A stretch of DNA of 64,000 bases from positions 1 through 64,000 of the forward strand of contig NZ_AYTW01000016.1 in NCBI RefSeq assembly GCF_002752635.1, written 5' to 3'. The notes under the pieces are model-generated. The model ran no database searches. It was not told where the DNA came from and was given only the letters and a program-made list of their open reading frames with translations. A program made the translations under genes and the position numbers. Positions 23,009 through 31,725 of the stretch are shown in pieces. How positions within the stretch are numbered: the stretch's first letter is position 1; every line of letters starts with the position of its first letter. The DNA comes from Mesotoga sp. Brook.08.105.5.1. GTDB lineage: Bacteria; Thermotogota; Thermotogae; Petrotogales; Kosmotogaceae.

Positions 23009-23982
23009 CTCTTCTCACACCTCCAGCAGGCCACCATGTGTTCCTCTTCAATCTCAATAAGGGGTGGTTCTTCTTCCTTGCACTTATCCATAGCGAGGGT
23101 ACATCTCGGATGAAATCTGCAGCCCGATGGAGGTTCCAGTAAGTCTGGAGGAGCACCGGGGATGAACGATAATTCACTTACCTTCGCGTGCAGTCTGGGA
23201 GTTGCAGCGAGCAAGTTTCTTGTATAGGGATGACAGGGCCCCTGTTCTCCGTATATCTGCTGGTTTGTTCCTATCTCCACTATCTTTCCGGCATACATAA
23301 CGGCTATTCTGTCGGACACTTCCGCCTCAGTTGCAAGATCGTGAGTTATGAAGATGAAGGAAAGGTCGAGTTTCTCCTTCAGGTCTTTGAGAAGGTTTAT
23401 TATCTGAGCCTGCACGATAACATCCAGGGCTGTGGTGGGTTCGTCACAGATTATCACCTTCGGTTCTAGAAAGAGAGCGGTAGCGATGGCGATTCTCTGT
23501 TTCATGCCACCTGAGAGTTCATGTGGATATCTCTTAACTATGTCGCTGGAGAGACCGACCAGGTTGAGATACTTCTCTATCCTCTTTCTCGCCTCGTCTC
23601 TCTCCATCTCTCTGTGTTCCTGCAGAGTCTCCATCATCTGTTTTCCGATGGTGTAGACGGGAGTGAGGGTATTCATAGCGCCCTGAAAGACCATGGAGAT
23701 CTTCTCCCAGCGGATGTTCCTTCTCATTTCATTCTCACGCAGGGGAGTAATGTCTATACCGTCGACCACTATCTTCCCGCCTGCGATCTTACCCGGGGGA
23801 GTGGGCATCTTAAGCAGGGCGAAGCCGGTGGTAGTCTTTCCGCAACCGGACTCGCCTACTAGACCGAGAGTCTCACCCTTCTTGAGAAAGAAAGAGATAT
23901 CGTCTGCGGCCTTCACGACGCCTTTGCTCGTGTAGTAGTAAAGCTTGAGGTTATCTACTGTCAATATGTTATCCATAGTCAT
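23005..23982 (-). CDS. Oligopeptide/oligosaccharide ABC transporter ATP-binding protein (OppD type)
   Basis: 325 aa. Walker A GLVGESGCGKTTTGFALL, Q-loop MVFQGAMNTLTPVYT, signature LSGGMKQRIAIATALF, Walker B VIICDEPTTALDVIVQ, switch His FITHDLATEAEV, and tail PPSGCRFHPRCTLAMDKC. The N-terminus LTVDNLKLYYYTSKGVVKAA is standard. It shares one base with the oppC-like stop upstream and overlaps oppF by 4 nt. Pairs with OppF as the heterodimeric ATPase. Confidence 0.92.
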   Translation of the reverse strand: MTMDNILTVDNLKLYYYTSKGVVKAADDISFFLKKGETLGLVGESGCGKTTTGFALLKMPTPPGKIAGGKIVVDGIDITPLRENEMRRNIRWEKISMVFQGAMNTLTPVYTIGKQMMETLQEHREMERDEARKRIEKYLNLVGLSSDIVKRYPHELSGGMKQRIAIATALFLEPKVIICDEPTTALDVIVQAQIINLLKDLKEKLDLSFIFITHDLATEAEVSDRIAVMYAGKIVEIGTNQQIYGEQGPCHPYTRNLLAATPRLHAKVSELSFIPGAPPDLLEPPSGCRFHPRCTLAMDKCKEEEPPLIEIEEEHMVACWRCEKR

Positions 23983-25376
23983 TACCTCGTCTTCAGTTTC
24001 GGGTTAAGTATCTTGTCCATTGCAAACCCTACAAATGCGAATGTCATACCCATGAAGGCTATCGCCAGTCCTGGTGGTATTACCCACCACCACATCCCAC
24101 TCAGCATAGCTCCGCCGCTGTTGGCTGCCTGGAGTATCTGTCCCCACGTAACAATAGTTGCATCTCCAAGACCCAAAAGGCTTATCGTAGCCTCTACAAC
24201 GATAGCACCTGGGACATTGAGCGCCATAGAGGCGAAGGCGTAAGGGATAAGCAGAGGCACCATATGCTTGAAGATTATTCTCGTATTAGATGCCCCGAGA
24301 GCTCTTGAGGCCTCTATGTAGGTCTCTTCCTTTATCTGGAGTCCCATGCTTCTGACTGTCTTCACCGGTCCTACCCAGTAGAAGATGCACATTATTCCTA
24401 TCATTACCCATATATTCGGCTTGAAGACTGCGCTCATGACGATGAGAACGGGAAGCATAGGAACGCTTATGAATATCTCGAATATCCTTTGCATGAGTGA
24501 GTCCTTCCAACCTCCGACGTATGCACTTATGACACCATATACGACACCTATGGATACTGAGATGAGGGCAGTGAGCAGTCCGATAAGCATAGCCCATTTC
24601 ACGCCTGCGATTACTCCGCTCCATATGTCTCTCTTGGAGTTGTCCGTTCCAAGAATACCGTGCACTCTGCCTGCAATATTTACAAAGGCTCCTTCGATGT
24701 TTTCGTCGGCCTTCTGCAGCAAAAGGGTTACCTTCAACTTGTATGTTCCCACCAATGGCGAAGGGCTTCTGAATATGCCCGGTTGAGCCTTAGAGAACAG
24801 AACATCAGTAGTCTTTATGGTCTGAAGCTGGACTCCTTCTGAGGGGGAATACTTCTTTCCAAAATTCATGGCCGAAGTCTGAGACGATCTGTCTATCGAA
24901 ACTCTTAGACTCTGAGTAGGGGACACTTCAAGCTGTTTTCTATATAGATCGATCGTCAAACCGTCCGGTCTCTCGATCGCAATAACTACAGTTGGTTTGC
25001 CGACTCCCGAGGCATGAAATACGATATCTGAAGGAGCAACTGAAGCAGAATAATCGTATTCGAAGACGTATTCTTGTATTCTCATCGCTCCCGCCATAGT
25101 CTCAGAAAACGAGTATTCCTCAATACTCTCGGAAACAGCTCTCTTTTTTGAAGCGAATATATTGATCCATGAAGGCGGAGCGCTAGCCGGCAGGTCCTGC
25201 CAATAAGTTATGTCCCTCCACTTCAGATTTGCTTCGGGATAGGGGACGATAACCGGTTCGAAGATCAAGATAAATATGAATATAACAAGAAAGATTACCC
25301 CGATTATGCCTGACTTGACCTTTCTGAACTCGCTCCAAAAACCGCCTAATGATCTTCTGAAGTCGCTAATAGTCAC
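23982..25376 (-). CDS. ABC transporter permease (OppC type) with large external insertion
   Basis: 464 aa, longer than the usual ~300. Helix 1 is at residues ~25-42. Residues ~45-255 are a hydrophilic, beta-rich insertion (for example IVFHASGVGKPTVVIAIERP) expected outside the membrane. The standard permease core then begins with GTDNSKRDIWSGVIAGVKWA and includes EASRALGASNTRIIFKHMVP (EAA loop contacting the ATPases). The insertion could dock the substrate-binding protein, whose gene is not in this operon. Overlaps oppB by 4 nt. Confidence 0.9.
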   Translation of the reverse strand: MTISDFRRSLGGFWSEFRKVKSGIIGVIFLVIFIFILIFEPVIVPYPEANLKWRDITYWQDLPASAPPSWINIFASKKRAVSESIEEYSFSETMAGAMRIQEYVFEYDYSASVAPSDIVFHASGVGKPTVVIAIERPDGLTIDLYRKQLEVSPTQSLRVSIDRSSQTSAMNFGKKYSPSEGVQLQTIKTTDVLFSKAQPGIFRSPSPLVGTYKLKVTLLLQKADENIEGAFVNIAGRVHGILGTDNSKRDIWSGVIAGVKWAMLIGLLTALISVSIGVVYGVISAYVGGWKDSLMQRIFEIFISVPMLPVLIVMSAVFKPNIWVMIGIMCIFYWVGPVKTVRSMGLQIKEETYIEASRALGASNTRIIFKHMVPLLIPYAFASMALNVPGAIVVEATISLLGLGDATIVTWGQILQAANSGGAMLSGMWWWVIPPGLAIAFMGMTFAFVGFAMDKILNPKLKTR

Positions 25377-27412: not shown

Positions 27413-29317
27413 TTAGTTTGAGCCGACATCGTGGTCTTCATCACCAGGCTTAAGCAGGTGTTCCGTCTTTTCGGCGATTTGTGCCCTGATTGTAAATGTT
27501 TCTGCAGACGAGGCTTCCGGATTTTTCCCTCCGTAGGCAAACTCAATCAGGACTTCCCCCGGGCCGGTGGGCTTCAAATGAAATATCGTATATCGGACGT
27601 CCATATACTCTTCTGCATAGGGACCGCTGATTACCTCAAATCCGGGACAAGAAGAGATCTGCCAATCGGAATTCTCATCGCTGCTTTTTTTTAGCTTAAC
27701 AAACACGCTTTGCTGTATACCAATCTCAATTGTTCTACCATTGTCCGAATCCTGAATAATAATACACTCTCTAACGGGCTCTGCGACTACTATAGTGGCC
27801 TCGAATGTTCTTTCTGGAGGTAGATCCTCCCAGGAACTCCCGTAGTCAAAGCGAACAGACGCCGTACCGTAGTTCATTCCTTCAAAATAGTATACTTGCT
27901 CGATTACTTTCGCTGCATACAATGGATTTTCAGATACCCTGGTTTCGCTTTCTTCCGGCTGTCTAAGGATTCCGGGATTTGTTGATGCTATTCGCCATTT
28001 CAGGTCAGAATCAACTGGTGATTCTAGTACTACCTCGACCGGTTCGTTCAGTCCAACAATGAAGGTTTTTCCAGAATCCGGAGTTGTAATGGTTAGGGGC
28101 TCGACAGAATACTCTTCAACATCTAGCGACATTGAACAAGTTCTCATTGGAGTCTCGTCCCAAATGGAGCCGAATGAAAACGTGATTCGGGTTGATCCGG
28201 ACCCAACCACTCTGAAGCTAAACACATCGTAGCCGTTGCCTTGTTCTATTGGTTCTTCGTAGAAGGGATCTGAAATGAGCCTCAACATGTCTTCATCGAA
28301 GTTACTAATCTTCCACGAATAGCCAGCTCCAGGACTTGAAGGAAGCATGACAGTAAAATCCTCACTTATCTGCATGTTCACGTTTCTCTCCAGGTCTTCC
28401 TGACCGAATACTCTGTCTCCAGGATTTCCTTGAAGAATCTCACGGCTTGTTTTCGGGAGTATTCCTGTGCTCGAGTTCTCTTCAACCCGTTTGAAGAAGC
28501 CGTCGACGATCAACTCAAAAGCAGCCTTTTCTTCAATCATTGGAAAGTGACCGCTGTTCATGAATGTCACAAATTCGCTGTTCGGAGCTCCAGACTGGTA
28601 GGCTGAGGTATGCGCGATCCCCGGAAAGCTCTTGATCCCAACGCAGACCAAAATAGGCACTCGAAGGTCGGGTAAACCTGAAGACAAGTCCAGTCCACGA
28701 AGTCTGCCTTCAATCGAGGTTGGATCCTCACCCCAGAAGAGGCTGTAGGTCGCCCTGTTAATCAGATCGTCCGTAATACCTTTGGCTCTGTCTTCAGCAG
28801 AAATACCGCCAAGCAAAAAGTTGTATTTGTCGAACCCATTCGTTGGCTCCGTTTCTCTTAGTTCGGATATTGCCAGATCAATCGCGGTATAGTTAAGTCT
28901 TGGATTGACCACTACAAGACTGAGGAGTCCGGGAGGATTTGTCAGAGCTAACCCTACGGCTACTGCACTTCCAAAGCCATGACCAACTAAATGGAAAGAG
29001 TTTAGGTCTAGGGAGTATATTAGTGCGGCTAGTTCAGATATATAGTACTGGAAGTCGATGTCTATAGAGGACGAATTCTCCGATTTCCCGCTTCCAAGGT
29101 GATCGTACCTTAGGACTCTTCTTTCCTGGAAGATACCCGTCATGTAAGAGCTGTCAAGACCGGGCCCATCACTTATTACTACTACTAGTTCCCCTTCGGT
29201 CCCCTCTATCTCGTAATAGATAAGGTTCCCATTGAAGACTATCTGTCCAGAAAACGATGAACAGACTGCTGACAGAACCAATAGAAAGACTGCAAGAATA
29301 CTTCGCAAATCATTCAC
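27413..29317 (-). CDS. Secreted pseudo-alpha/beta-hydrolase fused to three chagasin-like (I42) domains
   Basis: 634 aa, GTG 29317. Signal peptide ~1-24. Residues ~25-280 are an alpha/beta hydrolase of the proline-iminopeptidase-like type, but the nucleophile elbow reads VGHGFGSAVA, with Gly114 in place of Ser. His257 survives (NSGHFPMIEE); no clear catalytic Asp was seen. Residues ~304-402, ~406-512 and ~516-618 are three beta domains resembling chagasin cysteine-protease inhibitors: SPGAGYSWKIS, then FSFRVVGSGSTRITFSFGS for the first, with matching blocks in the others. Probably an exported binding or inhibitor protein rather than an enzyme. The fusion is unusual. Confidence 0.75.
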   Translation of the reverse strand: MNDLRSILAVFLLVLSAVCSSFSGQIVFNGNLIYYEIEGTEGELVVVISDGPGLDSSYMTGIFQERRVLRYDHLGSGKSENSSSIDIDFQYYISELAALIYSLDLNSFHLVGHGFGSAVAVGLALTNPPGLLSLVVVNPRLNYTAIDLAISELRETEPTNGFDKYNFLLGGISAEDRAKGITDDLINRATYSLFWGEDPTSIEGRLRGLDLSSGLPDLRVPILVCVGIKSFPGIAHTSAYQSGAPNSEFVTFMNSGHFPMIEEKAAFELIVDGFFKRVEENSSTGILPKTSREILQGNPGDRVFGQEDLERNVNMQISEDFTVMLPSSPGAGYSWKISNFDEDMLRLISDPFYEEPIEQGNGYDVFSFRVVGSGSTRITFSFGSIWDETPMRTCSMSLDVEEYSVEPLTITTPDSGKTFIVGLNEPVEVVLESPVDSDLKWRIASTNPGILRQPEESETRVSENPLYAAKVIEQVYYFEGMNYGTASVRFDYGSSWEDLPPERTFEATIVVAEPVRECIIIQDSDNGRTIEIGIQQSVFVKLKKSSDENSDWQISSCPGFEVISGPYAEEYMDVRYTIFHLKPTGPGEVLIEFAYGGKNPEASSAETFTIRAQIAEKTEHLLKPGDEDHDVGSN

Positions 29318-29450: not shown

Positions 29451-31316
29451 CTAGTGCATATGAAGCCAAACACACATCGGTGAATTTCCTCTGTTATTCC
29501 ACGCATAATAGGGAATAAGAGAGAATTTTACATTTTCGCTCTTGCTTTTCACAGAACCGAGCGAGTTGTAAAGCTTCTTGTCCCAGTTGTTAATATCATA
29601 AGCGATTCCCTTTCCACTTAATGTGACTGGATTTCCCGTGAGCGTATCGCTTCGTGAGAGTTCTAAGTTTTTTCTCGAAGGGATAGACAACGTACGCACA
29701 TCAAAAGAAGGATTGTCTACGCCTTCAGCACAGTAAACCAGCGGGCCGATTTGGACAGCAACTTTATCGGTATTCTCTCTTAGAAGTGGATTAGAGGTCA
29801 TCAACCTGATTCTCATCGGAAATGTGAGCGAAATCTCTGTCTTGCCCTTCCAGTTGCCTTCAAGTCTCACAAAACCTCTTTCAGGTCTTGTTTTCTGTTT
29901 CACGCCGTCTACTTGAAGATCAAACTCCCCTTCGGTCCATTCAGGAATTCTTAGGAGAATCGAGATGTCTGTATCTAGATCGGTGGAGATAATAAGATCG
30001 ATTTCTTCGGAATGAGGATAGGCTGTCTTCTGGATGATCGTCACCTCACCGTCCCTAAAGGGAATTGCAGACTTGCTCTCCTCGTAGAAATTGACTCTTA
30101 TTTCGTTCAAAGTAGTACCGTAAATGTAGCCCCCGAAGGATGTGAGCAATCTTGCGATATTGGGGGGGCAACACGCGCATTCATACCATTCCTCTCGGCT
30201 GTGCTTTCCGGCATCCTCCAGAGGATTCACGTAGAAATATCGTTTACCGTCGAGAGAGATTCCAGAAAGGACACCGTTGTAGAAAGTCCGCTCCATTACA
30301 TCGAGATACTTTGCGTCGCCGGAAATCATATACATACGCCAATTCCAGAATACATTTCCAATTGCGGCACACGTTTCCGCGTATGCTCTTCTGCTTGGCA
30401 GTTCGTACGCCTCGCCAAACGATTCTCCTTCATATCTTGAGCCAACTCCGCCCGTGATGTATATCTTTCGCGCGATCAGATCGACCCAGAGTCTTTCGAG
30501 AACTGCGAGGAGTGTTTCATCGCCTGTCTCTAGAAATACGTCGGCCGCTCCAGCGAGTAAGTAAAGCATTCTGACTGCGTGTCCAGTAAGTTCTTTGAGA
30601 TCTCTAAAGGAAGCATGGTCAATATGATACTCGTCACCACCTACATAGCCCTTTCCGCGATTATCTATGAGTCTTTCCACGAACTCCAGATAAGCACGGT
30701 CGGCGGTTTCGCGATGAAGCTCAACCAATGCCATTTCTAGATTGGGATGCCCGGTAGTAACTTCACTGTCGTCGTCATGAAAAGTCTCCAGAATTTCGTC
30801 GGCCACTCGCTTGCCGATTACGAAAAGCTTCTCATCACCTGAAGCTCTCTTATATGCTATCCCTGCTTGAATAAGATGACCCGCGCAGTAGAGTTCATGC
30901 ATGTTCTTAAGGTCTTTCCAGCGTTCCGAAGTCCGATCACCTATGAAGTAAGTGTCTATGTATCCGTTGCCGTTCTGAGCCTGAGCTTCCTCAATAAGTG
31001 TTATCAGTGACTCGATTCTCTCCCTGATTTCGGGATCTTCATTATACGGTAGCGAATAAGAAGCCGCCTCTATCCATTTGTATACATCGGAATCGTTGAA
31101 AAACCACCCGGTAAAGACTCCTTCCGATTTCCGTCCAGCCTTTCTGAAGTTTTCTATTCTTCCCGTCGATTCCAGATACTCATATTGAAGAGAGAGACTC
31201 GTCGACTTCATAAGTTCCTGATATCTGCTTACGAATCCCTCAAGTTTGACTCTTTCAAGCGCTATAGGTCTAACTTGCGCTCTTGGTGACCGCGAAGTGT
31301 CGTTGACAAAAGTCAC
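29451..31316 (-). CDS. Glycoside hydrolase family 127 beta-L-arabinofuranosidase
   Basis: 621 aa from GTG 31316, set by a perfect GGAGGTG 6 nt upstream (31323-31329); the frame further upstream is not family-like. The (alpha/alpha)6 barrel and beta-sandwich text is GH127: GYIDTYFIG, GHAVRMLYLLAG, YITGGVGSRYEGESFGEAY. The zinc-thiolate site is complete: Glu314 and Cys316 in YAETCAAIG, Cys382 and Cys383 in ECACCPPNIARL, where Cys382 is the expected nucleophile. No signal peptide: it would act in the cytoplasm on imported arabino-oligosaccharides. Confidence 0.93.
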   Translation of the reverse strand: MTFVNDTSRSPRAQVRPIALERVKLEGFVSRYQELMKSTSLSLQYEYLESTGRIENFRKAGRKSEGVFTGWFFNDSDVYKWIEAASYSLPYNEDPEIRERIESLITLIEEAQAQNGNGYIDTYFIGDRTSERWKDLKNMHELYCAGHLIQAGIAYKRASGDEKLFVIGKRVADEILETFHDDDSEVTTGHPNLEMALVELHRETADRAYLEFVERLIDNRGKGYVGGDEYHIDHASFRDLKELTGHAVRMLYLLAGAADVFLETGDETLLAVLERLWVDLIARKIYITGGVGSRYEGESFGEAYELPSRRAYAETCAAIGNVFWNWRMYMISGDAKYLDVMERTFYNGVLSGISLDGKRYFYVNPLEDAGKHSREEWYECACCPPNIARLLTSFGGYIYGTTLNEIRVNFYEESKSAIPFRDGEVTIIQKTAYPHSEEIDLIISTDLDTDISILLRIPEWTEGEFDLQVDGVKQKTRPERGFVRLEGNWKGKTEISLTFPMRIRLMTSNPLLRENTDKVAVQIGPLVYCAEGVDNPSFDVRTLSIPSRKNLELSRSDTLTGNPVTLSGKGIAYDINNWDKKLYNSLGSVKSKSENVKFSLIPYYAWNNRGNSPMCVWLHMH

Positions 31317-31404
31317 GCTTTTCACCTCCAAAGAAGATGCTCTCTCCTCAAGAGTAGCAGAAAAGGTGAGAACTTTTGTATCCTGAGATAAGGAGGGGAA
31401 GACC

Positions 31405-31725
31405 ATGTTTGAGAAGATAGATTATTGGGTTTCGGCAGCTAGTTACTCTGACAGAAATGGGACCTGGCTAATTGAGGCGGCACTTATCCATCCAAATGTG
31501 GGGGAGACCCACGAATATGGTGAGGAGTGGACACGCGAAGAGATCATTGATAAGTGCGACGTATTCGTGTTTTGTCTGATTTGTAAAGATGAAAAAGGGA
31601 ATTGGAAGATGGGTTCTCAGTTGAGAAAAGTTGAGACCGAAAAAGGAGTATTTATCAGGACTGATGAGATGAAGAAGACAGGGGATTATCTTGGAGATAT
31701 CCCGTTCTATGACAGTCTCAAGTAG
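31405..31725 (+). CDS. DUF3892-like small protein
   Basis: 106 aa, ATG 31405 after AAGGAGGGG. VSAASYSDRNGTWLIEAAL, then EEWTREEIIDKCDVF, FCLICKDEKGNWKMGSQL and the C-terminal GVFIRTDEMKKTGDYLGDIP resemble DUF3892: a beta-rich small protein ending in a T-D...D-x-LG-x-(I/L)P motif. Function unknown. Divergent from the GH127 gene, with 88 nt between start codons. No signal peptide. Confidence 0.65.
   Translation: MFEKIDYWVSAASYSDRNGTWLIEAALIHPNVGETHEYGEEWTREEIIDKCDVFVFCLICKDEKGNWKMGSQLRKVETEKGVFIRTDEMKKTGDYLGDIPFYDSLK

Follow-up and report, generated by a model that had tools for sequence, protein, structure and literature searches.

What is the role of a protein that joins a peptidase fold without its nucleophile to three peptidase-inhibitor folds? 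The window analysed here, the whole stretch of 64,000 nucleotides from Mesotoga sp. Brook.08.105.5.1 (contig NZ_AYTW01000016.1), carries a gene for such a protein. An earlier note, made from the letters of the window, had described it as an inactive hydrolase fused to three chagasin-like domains and had proposed that it protects against C1-type or other proteases. A dead peptidase fold combined with inhibitor folds is an uncommon architecture. Because this one is fixed throughout the genus and under selection, its role can be tested.

The ORF list of the window holds a frame of 634 amino acids on the minus strand at exactly 27413-29317. Its start codon is GTG, and an alternative TTG lies three codons downstream. 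The features of the locus are as follows, with the basis of each assignment in parentheses.

27413..29317, minus strand: whole gene, with a hydrophobic N-terminus, a dead S33-type hydrolase and three I42 domains (ORF, Pfam, AlphaFold2)
29261..29317, minus strand: hydrophobic N-terminus, probable signal peptide, residues 1-19 (read from the sequence)
28469..29254, minus strand: alpha/beta-hydrolase domain of prolyl-iminopeptidase type, residues 22-283 (profiles, AlphaFold2, fold match, F1 alignment)
28976..28978, minus strand: Gly114 in the nucleophile position, GHGFG (orthologue and F1 alignments)
28616..28639, minus strand: position at which the catalytic Asp and adjoining Glu have been lost, residues 227-234, GIKSFPGI (alignments)
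28547..28549, minus strand: His257, equivalent of the catalytic His, present in 9/10 orthologues (alignment)
28421..28468, minus strand: linker with low model confidence, residues 284-299 (AlphaFold2)
28118..28414, minus strand: I42 domain 1, residues 302-400 (Pfam, AlphaFold2, hhalign)
28313..28339, minus strand: L2 loop of domain 1, where SSPGAGYSW replaces N-x-[ST]-T-G (hhalign, motif count)
27785..28096, minus strand: I42 domain 2, residues 408-511 (Pfam, AlphaFold2, hhalign)
27473..27766, minus strand: I42 domain 3, the most diverged of the three, residues 518-615 (AlphaFold2, hhalign, orthologue Pfam scores)
29451..31406, minus strand: neighbouring gene for a GH127 beta-L-arabinofuranosidase-like protein, 133 bp upstream on the same strand (ORF list, synteny, profile)

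The hydrophobic N-terminus is seen in the window protein and its orthologues, and the fusion protein is probably exported or secreted. In an AlphaFold2 model (20 sequences, mean pLDDT 80), the hydrolase is followed by the low-confidence linker and then by three beta domains. A fold search with the whole model yielded only hydrolases among the matches listed, the hydrolase domain filling the list, and Pfam assigns Inhibitor_I42 as well as alpha/beta-hydrolase families to the window protein. The architecture is best read as new, built from folds already known. Among the titles listed by a literature search, none concerns an alpha/beta-hydrolase-I42 fusion or I42 in Mesotoga. A precedent for I42 joined to another domain is the stefin-chagasin fusion of Bacteroides fragilis, described in an excerpt of PMC2784779; there, however, the partner of I42 is itself a protease inhibitor, whereas here it is a dead enzyme.

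The hydrolase retains its fold, as the earlier note had proposed, and can be placed as prolyl-iminopeptidase type (S33) by profile and structure match. Its best NCBIfam match is the proline-iminopeptidase family TIGR01250 (E=9.5e-26; 91 bits, below the cut-off of 167.65), and phmmer gave E values down to 6.7e-10. The fold is closest to the group of prolyl iminopeptidase and tricorn interacting factor F1 (PDB 1mt3, 7a6g, 3wmr; VIA Z 29-31, rmsd 2.5, ~260 residues). Like F1, the fusion has GPG near the oxyanion position and, in the alignment, a Tyr that matches Tyr205. The differences from F1, apart from the fusion itself and the inferred export, lie in the residues on which activity depends.

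In F1, the Glu pair E213/E245 holds the substrate N-terminus. PDB titles for F1 name mutants of this pair. When the fusion is aligned with F1 (PDB 1xqw and mutants), Ser105 corresponds to Gly114, Glu213 corresponds to Pro, and the Asp244-Glu245 pair is replaced by the SFPG stretch. The GHGFG elbow reported earlier is real, and Gly114 is invariant in all ten orthologues, that of the window's own genome included, with Ser in none. Overlooked in the earlier note was a second loss common to all ten, that of the catalytic acid; the Asp-Glu of the nearest peptidases has become SFPG or NFPG, and NFPD in one. Of the Ser-Asp-His triad only the C-terminal His of the earlier note is left; it is kept in 9/10 orthologues and is Asn in L004. 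Judged by these residues, the hydrolase domain is catalytically dead: nucleophile, acid and both Glu residues for the N-terminus are gone.

By comparison, a nucleophile Ser is found in 18 of the 19 hydrolases from the same and related genomes that were aligned as relatives, including all seven of the nearest. Asp and His are also present in L018 and in the 6/6 nearest hydrolases whose entire domain was compared. Because relatives have Ser and the Gly is invariant among orthologues, the Gly is derived and fixed rather than an error of one genome. The single relative with Gly, at L015:1498-2445 (minus strand, G010), is an alpha/beta hydrolase with a GHGAG elbow and Arg at the expected His position. 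It has a hydrophobic N-terminus and no I42 part.

The earlier note had left room for the repeats to belong to an unrelated Ig-like family. A profile search returned I42 instead: PF09394 matches the window protein with 96.3 bits against a cut-off of 27.2 (E=1.4e-27), in two stretches. The third repeat is supported by scores in orthologues, where domain 3 reaches 27.3 bits in one (cut-off 27.2) and 26.3 and 25.4 bits in two others, and by hhalign. Compared by hhalign with 12 canonical I42 domains from the phylum, domain 1 reached a probability of 97.7%, domain 2 one of 96.9% and domain 3 one of 68.6%; the match of domain 3 to domain 2 had 97.1%. In a tree, the three fusion domains form a single clade (support 98/96) separate from canonical I42. 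Domains 2 and 3 each form strongly supported groups, but domain 1 does not (72/0). Because the three share one clade, they most likely arose as copies by duplication inside the fusion gene.

In chagasin, the inhibitory loops are L2 (NPTTG), L4 (GXGG) and L6 (RPW/F), according to an excerpt of PMC2607524. The L2 motif [ST]TG[YF].W is present in 12/12 canonical I42 domains of Thermotogota and in 0/29 domains of the fusion orthologues. For the L6 motif R.W the count is 10/12 among canonical domains; in the fusion orthologues it is limited to domain 2, in 3/10. RPW/F likewise is found in 0/10 copies of domain 1, in 3/10 of domain 2 (the window protein not among them) and in 0/9 of domain 3, which thus retains neither the L2 nor the L6 motif. 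All ten orthologues have one L6 Trp conserved in domain 1 and in domain 2. At L4, G[NSG]G stands in 10/10 copies of domain 1, short of the full motif, and GG in 3/10 of domain 2.

The fusion shares the family profile and apparently the fold of chagasin/ICP (MEROPS I42, PF09394) and retains part of the three-loop edge, namely G-x-G-Y and Trp in domain 1 and Trp in domain 2. Unlike chagasin, it has a dead hydrolase that carries the domain in three diverged copies, with the NPTTG-type L2 lost and RPW left in 3/10 orthologues. With its inhibitor loops altered, the fusion may or may not still block a protease. The dead hydrolase, the I42 assignment and the three repeats of the earlier note stand, and its interpretation is supported in part; inhibition of C1 proteases is a proposal.

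Among the 61 genomes searched, the full fusion was found in 10/10 of Mesotoga, although a contig end truncates one copy, and in 0/51 outside the genus, which match one half or nothing. No relative was seen among the viral contigs searched, and a viral origin was set aside on that basis. Plasmid copies were likewise rejected: the matches in 15 plasmid records never cover more than 80% of the query, and the best five of the 15 match the hydrolase part only.

Conserved neighbours of the fusion are the GH127 enzyme, with which it is paired in 7/10 genomes (its own included), and an oligopeptide-type ABC transporter, beside whose genes the order is preserved in six genomes in addition to its own. 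Within the window, an OppC-type permease (23982-25376, minus strand) has ~225 residues separating an N-terminal segment from the permease domain. In the six other syntenic genomes, the fusion is 53-60% identical to that of the window, whereas its neighbours are mostly 72-96% identical. In two genome pairs, omega was 0.21-0.31 for the fusion versus 0.01-0.14 for four neighbours. Across six close pairs, omega was 0.17-0.38 for the whole gene, 0.14-0.33 for the hydrolase, and 0.10-0.35, 0.12-0.31 and 0.22-0.56 for I42 domains 1, 2 and 3. It was lower than in the hydrolase for domain 1 in 5/6 pairs and for domain 2 in 4/6. No folded domain exceeded 1; outside the signal peptide, the sole value above 1 belongs to a 30-codon linker. 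The fusion gene is under purifying selection, yet it changes faster than its neighbours.

A candidate target is encoded in the window's own genome, whose single C1 match (L064:4752-7556, minus strand; G000:C15) combines a lipoprotein-like N-terminus with Ig/PKD repeats. The NSWG segment comes first in this protein, followed by a predicted beta-sandwich region and then by the Cys and His segments. In papain, the NSWG segment bears the active-site Asn. The order Asn before Cys and His was found in 12/12 parsed loci of this family (12 of 14 loci, in 12 genomes; relatives L107-L120), and the alignment of these loci shows no variation at the Cys, the His or the Asn. The Cys-His part aligns to mature cathepsin K until about residue 172, short of the expected Asn, and the frame stops 10-17 residues past the start of the His motif. 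C1 genes of relatives have the usual Cys-His-Asn order in 5/5 parsed cases (5 of ten tried). By sequence order, the papain domain of this secreted family appears to be circularly permuted. An AlphaFold model of the permuted region has a mean pLDDT of 61 and no Foldseek match under E 0.001. According to an excerpt of PMC10318531, the papain/cathepsin cluster has every core element in place, and the permuted forms named there belong to other clusters.

The permuted family is present in 12/103 genomes of the phylum and I42 genes in 18/103, and all 12 lie inside the 18. Of 38 genera, 4 have the permuted peptidase and 6 have I42, the 4 lying within the 6 (p=2e-4); of 11 taxonomic families, the 2 with the peptidase are the 2 with I42 (p=0.018). 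Shared descent is still included in both counts. This co-occurrence concerns I42 genes as a set and does not hold for the fusion itself: G002, G005 and G006 have the fusion and other C1 matches but no match to the permuted family, G005 being 80% complete and G002 and G006 fragmented. PF00112 as a whole occurs in 35/103 genomes, among them 15 of the 18 with I42, so C1 peptidases in general are also commoner with I42. No linkage between fusion and C1 peptidase genes was seen. In G001, G004 and G009, the contig with the fusion also carries a 500-aa-type C1 match, which was considered and rejected as too far off, at ~28-35 kb. The permuted secreted peptidase is the best candidate for a target of the I42 set. 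Through the co-occurrence, bacterial I42 inhibitors gain a concrete candidate for a native target. A 2009 statement in the excerpt of PMC2784779 has inhibition by bacterial chagasin verified for a eukaryotic peptidase only, not for a bacterial one.

The reading that we favour, tentatively, is that the fusion is a secreted multivalent protease-binding pseudoenzyme. After export, domains 1 and 2, with their loop Trp and the G-x-G-Y of domain 1, would bind the active-site cleft or the surface of a papain-like cysteine peptidase outside the cell. Inhibition would be weaker or shifted relative to canonical I42, and the dead hydrolase would act as a carrier or as a scaffold that binds peptides. The fusion's likeliest partner would be a secreted C1 peptidase encoded by the same genome. 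For this reading speak the I42 profile and hhalign matches, the fixed loss of triad and Glu residues, the low omega, the single clade of the domains, the co-occurrence of I42 genes with the permuted C1 family, and the lipoprotein-like N-terminus and Ig/PKD repeats of the genome's C1 protein. Against it stand the missing L2 (29/29), an RPW kept in only 3, a domain 3 that lacks both motifs, the 3/10 fusion genomes without the permuted peptidase, the lack of observed linkage, and neighbours that are a GH127 enzyme and an ABC transporter.

The main rival in our analysis is a real possibility, if a less probable one. Here the I42 domains would be Ig-like spacers or binding modules that have lost inhibition, and the dead hydrolase would be the functional module, serving peptides or another small ligand as receptor or chaperone near the oligopeptide-type transporter. 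The universal loss of L2 fits this proposal, as do the Tyr at the F1 Tyr205 position, the gene order kept beside the transporter in six further genomes, and the solute-binding domains on another I42 protein of the genome. However, loss of both Glu residues means that the peptide-binding mode known for this peptidase family is gone, and domains 1 and 2 mostly have lower omega than the hydrolase. That the fusion is a defence protein against foreign secreted cysteine proteases of predators or competitors, in line with the protection suggested in the earlier note, we consider unlikely. The gene's higher omega and lower identity relative to its neighbours would agree with defence, but because omega exceeds 1 for none of the folded domains in the six close pairs, they point to relaxed constraint no less than to an arms race.

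The raised omega could also be read as decay, and stops were flagged at the end of the match to the L008 orthologue. Those stops lie beyond the end of the L008 ORF, however, and the frames are open over the whole protein in 9/10 genomes, that of L010 being cut by the contig end. Moreover, omega is well below 1 in the hydrolase and in domain 1, and thus the gene is not decaying; open frames and omega together rule out a pseudogene, and we regard this explanation as very improbable. Least credible of all is that the hydrolase is still an enzyme with an unusual nucleophile. The window protein does have a Ser three residues past the elbow position (GHGFGS), but this residue is Gly in 3/10 orthologues, so catalysis through a shifted Ser is ruled out, and the acid is gone from all ten orthologues and the His from one.

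Protease binding by the fusion could also be part of a larger system, although we doubt it. Mesotoga and its relatives would then have an extracellular protease-inhibitor pair, in which the secreted permuted papain-like lipoprotein peptidase is controlled by I42 proteins and the fusion is the genus-specific part. If so, a pseudoenzyme would have been recruited to carry a protease inhibitor, and the dead hydrolase would hold the peptidase or its peptide products.

Other I42 proteins accompany the fusion in this genome and in related ones. The proteins L078, L079 and L080 of Kosmotoga-like relatives have three I42 domains and a hydrophobic N-terminus, as the fusion does, but their L2 loops are canonical, they lack a hydrolase, and their domains fall outside the fusion clade. 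Together with L081, they are triple-I42 proteins that stand alone, in related genera. Within the window's own genome, a double-I42 protein (G000:C17) and a fusion of solute-binding protein and I42 keep the canonical motifs tested. In the latter (L061:4925-6694, minus strand; G000:C24), family-3 solute-binding domains occupy two stretches and precede a single I42 domain whose loops are canonical. A further double-I42 gene (L063:4031-4801, minus strand; G000:C45) carries an in-frame stop, unlike the open double-I42 frames of other Mesotoga genomes.
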